Shown in pieces: positions 19,180 to 49,631 of a stretch of DNA of 64,000 nt. Position 1 is the first letter of the stretch. Each line of letters begins with the position of its first letter. Below the pieces are notes generated by a model. The model saw only the letters and a list, made by a program, of their open reading frames with translations. It did not search any database and was not told where the DNA came from. The translations under genes and the position numbers were made by a program. Source of the DNA: Prochlorococcus sp. AG-363-M21 (GTDB lineage Bacteria; Cyanobacteriota; Cyanobacteriia; PCC-6307; Cyanobiaceae); NCBI GenBank assembly GCA_003278305.1, contig QCFU01000002.1, positions 62,001 to 126,000 of the forward strand, read 5' to 3'.

Positions 19180-19250
19180 GGCGGCATGGCCAAGTGGTAA
19201 GGCAGAGGATTGCAAATCCTTTATCCCCAGTTCGAATCTGGGTGCCGCCT
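19180..19250 (+). tRNA. tRNA-Cys (anticodon GCA)
   Basis: A 71-nt cloverleaf. Acceptor stem GGCGGCA (19180-19186) pairs with TGCCGCC (19243-19249) and U73 is the discriminator, as expected for cysteine tRNA. The anticodon stem GAGGA/TCCTT (with G-U) encloses loop TTGCAAA, with GCA at 19212-19214. T-arm CCCAGTTCGAATCTGGG. CCA is not encoded. It is divergent from the LpxB-related gene. Confidence 0.97.
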
Positions 19251-19411
19251 TTATTAGTTTCCTCAGAATTCCATTGAGGAAATCGCGTATCGAATCTCGC
19301 TTTCTCATTGTTCTTGCATGGGCATATCAAATGAGTGGAAGGTGTATCAAACTAATTCCCATGCAAACAGTCATCATCTTAAAGAAATCAAATTCTTAGT
19401 TAGATCCTAAG
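19251..19411. other. Gene-free stretch between tRNA-Cys and the Yfr1-like RNA
   Basis: 161 bp with no credible ORF. It holds a weak hairpin CCTCA/TGAGG at 19261-19279, just after tRNA-Cys, without a following T-run, so it is not a standard terminator. It also contains the larger inverted repeat listed separately and a 7-bp repeat TTCTTAG/CTAAGAA near 19392-19412, next to the end of the Yfr1-like RNA. Confidence 0.6.
19314..19366. repeat. 9-bp perfect inverted repeat with a 35-nt spacer
   Basis: TTGCATGGG at 19314-19322 is mirrored by CCCATGCAA at 19358-19366. The spacer holds two similar heptamers (TATCAAA at about 19325 and 19346). Either strand could form a hairpin RNA, or the arms could be a protein site. 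There is no T-run after either arm, so it is not a simple terminator. No ORF covers it. Confidence 0.6.
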
Positions 19412-19467
19412 AAAAAAGGCGCCCTCAAGGAGTAGCGCCCATATGGACAAGTGTGTGAGGAGTGTCC
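19412..19467 (-). ncRNA. yfr1: Yfr1-like regulatory RNA
   Basis: On the minus strand, positions 19463-19453 read ACTCCTCACAC, the hallmark motif of Yfr1, the cyanobacterial small RNA that base-pairs with porin mRNAs in Prochlorococcus. Downstream is a GGCGC/GCGCC hairpin followed by six T (19417-19412), a standard Rho-independent end. A TATAGT -10 box ends 6 nt before G19467. The predicted RNA is 56 nt, the size expected for Yfr1. The motif here sits inside a GGACA/TGTCC stem near the 5' end, instead of unpaired between two hairpins as in the usual model, and the terminator loop carries a second ACTCCT (19433-19428). Confidence 0.85.
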
Positions 19468-19473
19468 TTTATC

Positions 19474-19502
19474 ACTATACCAATCCCAATGAGTTTTCTA
19501 AA
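19474..19502 (-). promoter_or_regulatory. Probable sigma-70 promoter of the Yfr1-like RNA
   Basis: On the minus strand, -10 TATAGT at 19479-19474 and a -35-like TTTAGA at 19502-19497 (four of six consensus bases) are separated by 17 nt. The predicted start is G19467. The precise match of spacing to the RNA 5' end supports it. Confidence 0.6.
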
Positions 19503-19762: not shown

Positions 19763-19891
19763 ATGGAGCCTAAAATCCAACCACAGAATAATCTGTACGG
19801 CCTATTCGCTGTTGTCCAAATCGCCGCAGTAATTATTGCCTCTCTTGGAGCGCTTCTGGGTTATGAAAAAGTTTTCTTCCCATTTTCTTGA
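19763..19891 (+). CDS. 42-residue single-span membrane protein, unknown
   Basis: ATG at 19763, TGA at 19889-19891. The N-terminal 11 residues are polar (MEPKIQPQNN), then a hydrophobic helix rich in A, V, I and L (LFAVVQIAAVIIASLGALLG), then YEKVFFPFS. The layout resembles the tiny one-helix subunits of photosynthetic complexes, but the sequence matches none I can name (not PsbI, J, K, L, M, N, T, X, PetG, L, M, N, or PsaI, J, M). A TATAAA at 19732-19737 is a possible -10 box. Coding nature is judged only from the composition and the long clean helix. Confidence 0.55.
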   Translation: MEPKIQPQNNLYGLFAVVQIAAVIIASLGALLGYEKVFFPFS

Positions 19892-40097: not shown

Positions 40098-40500
40098 GAA
40101 AGCAGGAGAGGTGATCGCAATCAAAAAATTGTTGCCAAACAGCAATAAAATTTTGATTGAGGAAAGTCCGGGCTCCTTAATGGTCAAGCTTGCTGGGTAA
40201 CGCCCAGTGCGGGCAACCGTGAGGATAGTGCCACAGAAACACACCGCCAATGACTGAGGCAAAGCCCTCTGTACAGGCAAGGGTGCAAAGGTGCGGTAAG
40301 AGCGCACCAGCAGCATCGAGAGGTGCTGGCTAGGTAAACCCCGGCCAGGAGCAAGGTAAAAGAACTTGGTTGGCCATCTTTGCCAAGTTTTTGCTTAAAA
40401 CCCGCTAGAGGCTGTCGGCAACGACAGTCCCAGATAGATGATCACCCACTAACCTAACTAGATAGGTTAATGAACAGAACCCGGCTTACGACCTGCTTTC
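40098..40500 (+). ncRNA. rnpB: RNase P RNA
   Basis: The catalytic RNA of RNase P, type A layout. The terminal helix P1 is seen as GAAAGCAGG (40098-40106) with CCTGCTTTC (40492-40500). Conserved core elements are GAGGAAAGTCCGGGCTCC near 40159-40176 (P4/CR-I), the ACAGAAA segment near 40234, GGTGCGGTAAGAGCGCACC, and AACAGAACCCGGCTTACG near 40473-40490 that pairs back to P4. The length of 403 nt is typical for cyanobacteria. A run of six T follows P1 (40503-40509), a plausible transcript end. Ends are estimates to within a few bases. Confidence 0.93.
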
Positions 40501-40571
40501 ACCTTTTTTATGCAAACATCATTGAACTATGAGGACATTAAACCAACACTAAATTCATAGGAAAGTTTTTA

Positions 40572-49451: not shown

Positions 49452-49485
49452 TTATAGGGATGACATCAACAACGATCACTCTCTT

Positions 49486-49573
49486 TCACTTTCCTGCGAC
49501 GTAATTAAACGTATCAGGTTCAGAGGGTGTGATCTCAGCCGAAAAAGCATTTGCCTTAAGGCACCCCTAGTGA
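49486..49573 (-). promoter_or_regulatory. TPP riboswitch (THI element) in the thiC leader
   Basis: Read 5'-3' on the minus strand, it has the P1 arm TCACT with its partner AGTGA, then AGGGGTGCC, GCTGAGATCACACCC, TGAACCTGATAC and a final GCAGGAAAGTGA. This is the standard order of the thiamine-pyrophosphate aptamer. About 55 nt separate it from the ATG, enough for an expression platform. When TPP is high, thiC should be turned down. I could not decide between transcription and translation control. Confidence 0.94.
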
Positions 49574-49631
49574 TATCTCAAGCTAGCTATATTTTCCAAA
49601 AAATACCTTAAGGGTTTCAAACTACAAATAA

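Follow-up and report, generated by a model that had tools for sequence, protein, structure and literature searches.

The minus strand at positions 19412-19467 of the window (the whole 64,000-nt stretch of contig QCFU01000002.1 of Prochlorococcus sp. AG-363-M21 that was analysed) carries a gene of approximately 56 nt, which we assign, with a probability of about 0.88, to the Yfr10 family of trans-acting small regulatory RNAs, in an uncultured low-light Prochlorococcus lineage. The anatomy, covariation, orthology and synteny of this RNA were established computationally. A preliminary description of the locus had presented it as a Yfr1-like RNA with an unusual fold. It is indeed a gene for a small RNA that contains the Yfr1 motif, but it was filed in the wrong family: according to the literature, the distinguishing feature of Yfr10 is a motif located in a 5′ hairpin loop (PMC6778093, PMC2518516).

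Structure and location of the RNA gene

The 11-nt motif ACTCCTCACAC is located on the minus strand at 19453-19463, within the coordinates previously given, which are correct. It occurs once within the window (0.02 copies expected) and nowhere else in the 1.16 Mb assembly, and all three g1 genomes (65-81% complete) have a single copy of the 11-mer. The predicted target- and Yfr2-binding motif, ACUCCUCACAC, occupies the loop of a hairpin (hairpin 1), and its first A closes the stem formed by the arms GGACA (19463-19467) and UGUCC (TGTCC in the DNA; 19445-19449). Folding and covariation support both arms, as they do the second hairpin (GGGCGCU-A-CUC-CUU-GAG-GGCGCC, with the A bulged; 19418-19440), which is followed by the U run of an intrinsic terminator (TTTTTT in the DNA; 19412-19417). 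Upstream of the gene, the sequence TATAGT (19474-19479) constitutes a putative -10 box, from which the 5′ end of the RNA, 7 nt further on, was placed. A TG one base upstream of this hexamer makes it an extended -10 element (TGGTATAGT), and the orthologues also carry a TTGGTATAGT-like element upstream. The order of these elements on the minus strand is TGGTATAGT-GATAAA-GGACACTCCTCACACACTTGTCC-ATAT-GGGCGCTACTCCTTGAGGGCGCC-TTTTTT.

The predicted fold (-18.4 kcal/mol, z = -3.1) comprises the 5-bp hairpin with the motif in its loop, plus the terminator hairpin. The promoter-like element, the Rho-independent end, the motif within the GGACA/TGTCC stem-loop and a fold distinct from that of Yfr1, all of which the preliminary description had proposed, were thus recovered. 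A structural switch, with base pairing between CCUCA of the motif and UGAGG in the terminator, was rejected: it is on average 7.6 kcal/mol less favourable than the usual structure, with a pair probability of ≤0.016.

As noted previously, the neighbours of the gene are tRNA-Cys(GCA) (19180-19250, plus strand) and a small, conserved 42-aa ORF of no assigned function (19763-19891, plus strand), and not guaB and trxA. In genomes of g1, g39 and g11, the RNA retains tRNA-Cys, a lipid-A-disaccharide synthase-related gene (lpxB-related; TIGR03492), the 42-aa ORF (69-87% identical in relatives) and a 222-aa ORF, so the suggested comparison of synteny shows a location beside tRNA-Cys to be the usual one in this clade. 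The 42-aa sequence (MEPKIQPQNNLYGLFAVVQIAAVIIASLGALLGYEKVFFPFS) contains a hydrophobic stretch recognized by eye, and gave no match in Pfam or NCBIfam. Elsewhere, the window encodes ordinary RNAs, i.e. RNase P RNA class A (40098-40504, plus strand) and a TPP riboswitch (49474-49578, minus strand).

Covariation and distribution in related genomes

Motif sites were gathered from a set of 201 genomes belonging to the same family (the motif is present in 196) and were split into Yfr1-type and loop-type sites. An alignment of 37 distinct loop-type RNAs, all with the two hairpins described above, formed the basis of a covariance model, designated R1. Conservation extends beyond the 11-nt motif: compensatory changes were found in 9 of the 15 base pairs, and 99.3% of the cells are able to pair. 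None of 500 shuffled alignments reached nine covarying pairs, nor did slid controls come near this number. Within hairpin 1, the outer pair is swapped (G-C/C-G) in 18 of the 37 sequences and the fourth pair (C-G/G-C) in 4. The motif itself is invariant across the aligned relatives, which is partly a matter of construction, since these were gathered with the 11-mer.

Model R1 identified the RNA in 58 of the 201 genomes, representing 31 of 59 genera, with up to 7 copies per genome; its score for the window RNA (80.6 bits over 19409-19471) is high by construction, the window sequence itself being part of the model. Some relatives contain 6-7 R1-type copies (genome G021, and loci L031, L032 and L006 of contig C2 of genome G079), several of them clustered within approximately 20 kb. 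In some cases a Yfr2 comes next, a pattern that points to Yfr10-Yfr2 pairs having been duplicated locally.

The apex of the terminator is near-invariant in 61 distinct relatives (bulged purine, CTC, a triloop that is mostly GAT or GTT, and GAG), unlike the freely covarying lower stem; this conservation of the apex exceeds a terminator's need. An ATG downstream of the terminator, present in many relatives, begins no consistent ORF, and the region often corresponds to the spacer preceding Yfr2. Among 22 viral contigs containing GACACTCCTCACACA, inspection by eye revealed none with the Yfr10 hairpin and terminator.

Assignment to the Yfr10 family

According to PMC6778093, the motif of Yfr1 is single-stranded between two stem-loops, whereas that of Yfr10 is located in a loop on top of a stem. 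Folding and covariation place the window RNA in the second category, with a loop on top of its 5′ stem, and the sequence and predicted fold also agree with Yfr10 in being those of a short RNA gene with a Rho-independent terminator. At this locus, no Rfam model scores above its gathering threshold. The Yfr10 model (RF02362) aligns end to end with the window RNA at 17.7 bits, below its gathering cut-off of 43 bits; this nevertheless exceeds the score of the Yfr1 model (RF01116), the check proposed at the outset, which gave 13.5 bits against a cut-off of 38. RF02362 scores above its cut-off in 7 of the 7 tested g17 genomes and at one g4 locus, and below it in the tested genomes of g1, g11, g39, g52, g53, g56 and g29. 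Its match in g17 genome G151, at 346661-346738, coincides with the published coordinates of Yfr10 of MED4, and we infer that G151 is MED4. We therefore read the failed cut-off as the property of a narrow model, which catches mainly high-light Prochlorococcus, and not as a biological criterion. PMC6778093 reports that Yfr10 homologues show poor conservation outside the motif, and it assigns a Yfr10 to SS120.

Two further observations link the models. Locus G005:C1:1390617 of g4 matches both RF02362 (43.9 bits, above the cut-off) and R1 (E 7.9e-4). Moreover, 16 of 60 R1 copies, though not the one in the window, are placed 69-132 nt upstream of Yfr2 on the same strand. This is the classic Yfr10 arrangement (in MED4, Yfr10, Yfr18 and a mutated Yfr12 adjoin Yfr2, Yfr5 and Yfr4, respectively; PMC2518516), and it supports membership in that family. 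Based on this bridging locus, the adjacency to Yfr2 and the pattern of RF02362 matches, we conclude that the window RNA represents the form of Yfr10 found in low-light Prochlorococcus and in other marine relatives.

The window RNA and Yfr10 of MED4 (RF02362; 78 nt; PMC2518516, PMC6778093) both hold the motif in a 5′ hairpin loop, have a terminator hairpin at the 3′ end and are associated with Yfr2, which is adjacent in many relatives and complementary in the own genome. The window RNA differs in its shorter length (~56 nt), its position beside tRNA-Cys rather than Yfr2, and its terminator, with the bulged purine and CUC-NNN-GAG apex. Yfr18 and Yfr12 of MED4 are motif-bearing relatives of Yfr10 (PMC2518516), and the loop-type high-light loci L054-L056 fold alike; the terminator and locus of the window RNA are different from theirs, and the motif of Yfr12 is mutated. 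Yfr103 (PMC5069720), also a multi-copy ncRNA of marine picocyanobacteria, was ruled out by its length of 290-328 nt.

The low RF02362 score, a conserved terminator unlike that of high-light Yfr10 and a tRNA-Cys locus that is not the Yfr10 locus of MED4 all count against the Yfr10 assignment, and they would suit a separate, unnamed family that has converged on the motif and loop arrangement of Yfr1 and Yfr10. The cross-match of R1 to high-light Yfr10-type RNAs (a weak recovery at 28-29 bits, versus 17-18.5 bits for high-light Yfr1) mostly involves hairpin 1 and the motif, and so leaves room for convergence around the latter. Such a family is nonetheless improbable in view of the copies adjacent to Yfr2, the locus fitting both models and the poor conservation of recognized Yfr10 homologues outside the motif, as reported in PMC6778093.

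There is still less to recommend a divergent Yfr1 that has moved and refolded. Yfr1 (RF01116) and the window RNA share the ultraconserved 11-mer, a terminator and a similar length, but Yfr1 has a hairpin ahead of an unpaired motif and is located between guaB and trxA, whereas the window RNA has no stem-loop 5′ of the motif and falls far below the RF01116 cut-off. In addition, a true Yfr1 (at guaB-trxA in G005) coexists with a loop-type RNA in genomes such as G005 and G053, and the guaB-trxA locus of the own genome is assembled yet empty.

An RNA with two seed regions, the second being an ACTCCT repeat in the terminator loop, had also been envisaged, and we consider it just as hard to sustain. 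The hexamer does recur (19428-19433, minus strand), and its bulged A and two loop bases are unpaired; its CUC, however, forms a stem arm and is not in the loop, with an unpaired probability of 0.04-0.06 (paired ~0.95). Opening of this site costs 2.4 kcal/mol, compared with 1.1 for the true site. One of the aligned relatives has the triplet altered on both sides of the stem (CGC/GCG), which marks CUC as stem. The triloop CTT, whose first two bases complete the hexamer, is present in 1 of the 61 distinct sequences, the motif-completing C being G in nearly all relatives, and reversion of this C to the usual G in silico leaves the predicted pairing with Yfr2 unchanged. The terminator ACTCCT is a private substitution, accidental and not a conserved seed, and the claim of two seeds at this locus should be dropped. 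Finally, a chance motif or the terminator of a neighbouring gene, with no small RNA at all, can be dismissed: although a single 11-mer is expected ~0.5 times per 2 Mb (PMC2190773, PMC2518516), the combination of two covarying hairpins, the motif and a terminator recurs in approximately 30 genera, with synteny in three genera and a shared -10-like box.

Loss of Yfr1 and the relationship with Yfr2

RF01116 scored above its cut-off in none of the 3 g1, 3 g39 and 7 g11 genomes (five of them 99-100% complete), and above it in the tested g17, g4, g52 and g56 genomes. The guaB-trxA spacer is assembled and does not contain Yfr1 in the own genome (194 nt), in G002, and in two g39 and three g11 genomes; that of G005 and G018 contains it. 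The seven Yfr1-less rows of a guaB tree cluster with a support of 88/88 (below the starred level), a grouping compatible with one loss of Yfr1. This loss has been described for SS120 and MIT9211 (PMC2190773), and it has been suggested in PMC6778093 that Yfr10 may substitute for Yfr1 in SS120. Loss of Yfr1 with retention of Yfr10 is extended here beyond these two strains to an uncultured genus and a clade of three genera. With Yfr1 gone from this clade, no RNA other than that of the window was found to bear the motif in the genome as assembled.

Inspection of the guaB-trxA spacers (L151-L159) also revealed a conserved stretch before trxA, beginning with AAAGTT and including ATGGCAAGAATCATTTT and GGCAAAATAAAT, in low-light genomes with or without Yfr1. 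It is probably the promoter or leader of trxA.

The own genome encodes Yfr2 (RF01701 Cyano-1, 52.4 bits), whose 5′ region reads TGTGAGGAGT, a perfect 10-nt complement of ACTCCTCACA in the motif. Relative to the separate folds, the predicted co-fold of the two RNAs has a pairing gain of -10.2 kcal/mol, which falls to -0.7 kcal/mol when UCCU is changed to UGGU, a change (M2) reported in PMC6778093 to abolish binding of ppa. The same source describes, for MED4, binding of Yfr10 to Yfr2 and to target mRNAs, and a rise of its level in darkness. By analogy with these MED4 experiments, the window RNA may be transcribed, may bind and regulate mRNAs, and may be engaged in mutual titration with Yfr2. 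The loop of the 5′ hairpin would present ACUCCUCACAC and base-pair with mRNAs, its CUCCU core suiting Shine-Dalgarno-like GAGGA sites; the antagonist Yfr2 (5′-UGUGAGGAGU) would pair with the same loop and titrate the RNA, and the 3′ hairpin would act as the transcription terminator. Within the window, the target site GTGAGGAG was found only as the complement of the motif itself. It is possible, though we hold this with considerable doubt, that in the Yfr1-less clade of three genera the Yfr10 of the tRNA-Cys locus took over the entire motif-dependent regulon, comprising the targets of both Yfr1 and Yfr10, with Yfr2 as its antagonist.

The Yfr10 family is known, and a motif held in a hairpin loop is normal for it; what is new is a low-light member in an uncultured Prochlorococcus. 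The Rfam model of Yfr10 misses low-light Prochlorococcus and related marine forms, which the alignment of 37 sequences defines. The RNA of the window is of mild importance because its lineage has lost Yfr1, leaving it as the sole carrier of the motif found, and the conjecture, already published, that Yfr10 substitutes for the lost Yfr1 is now easier to test.
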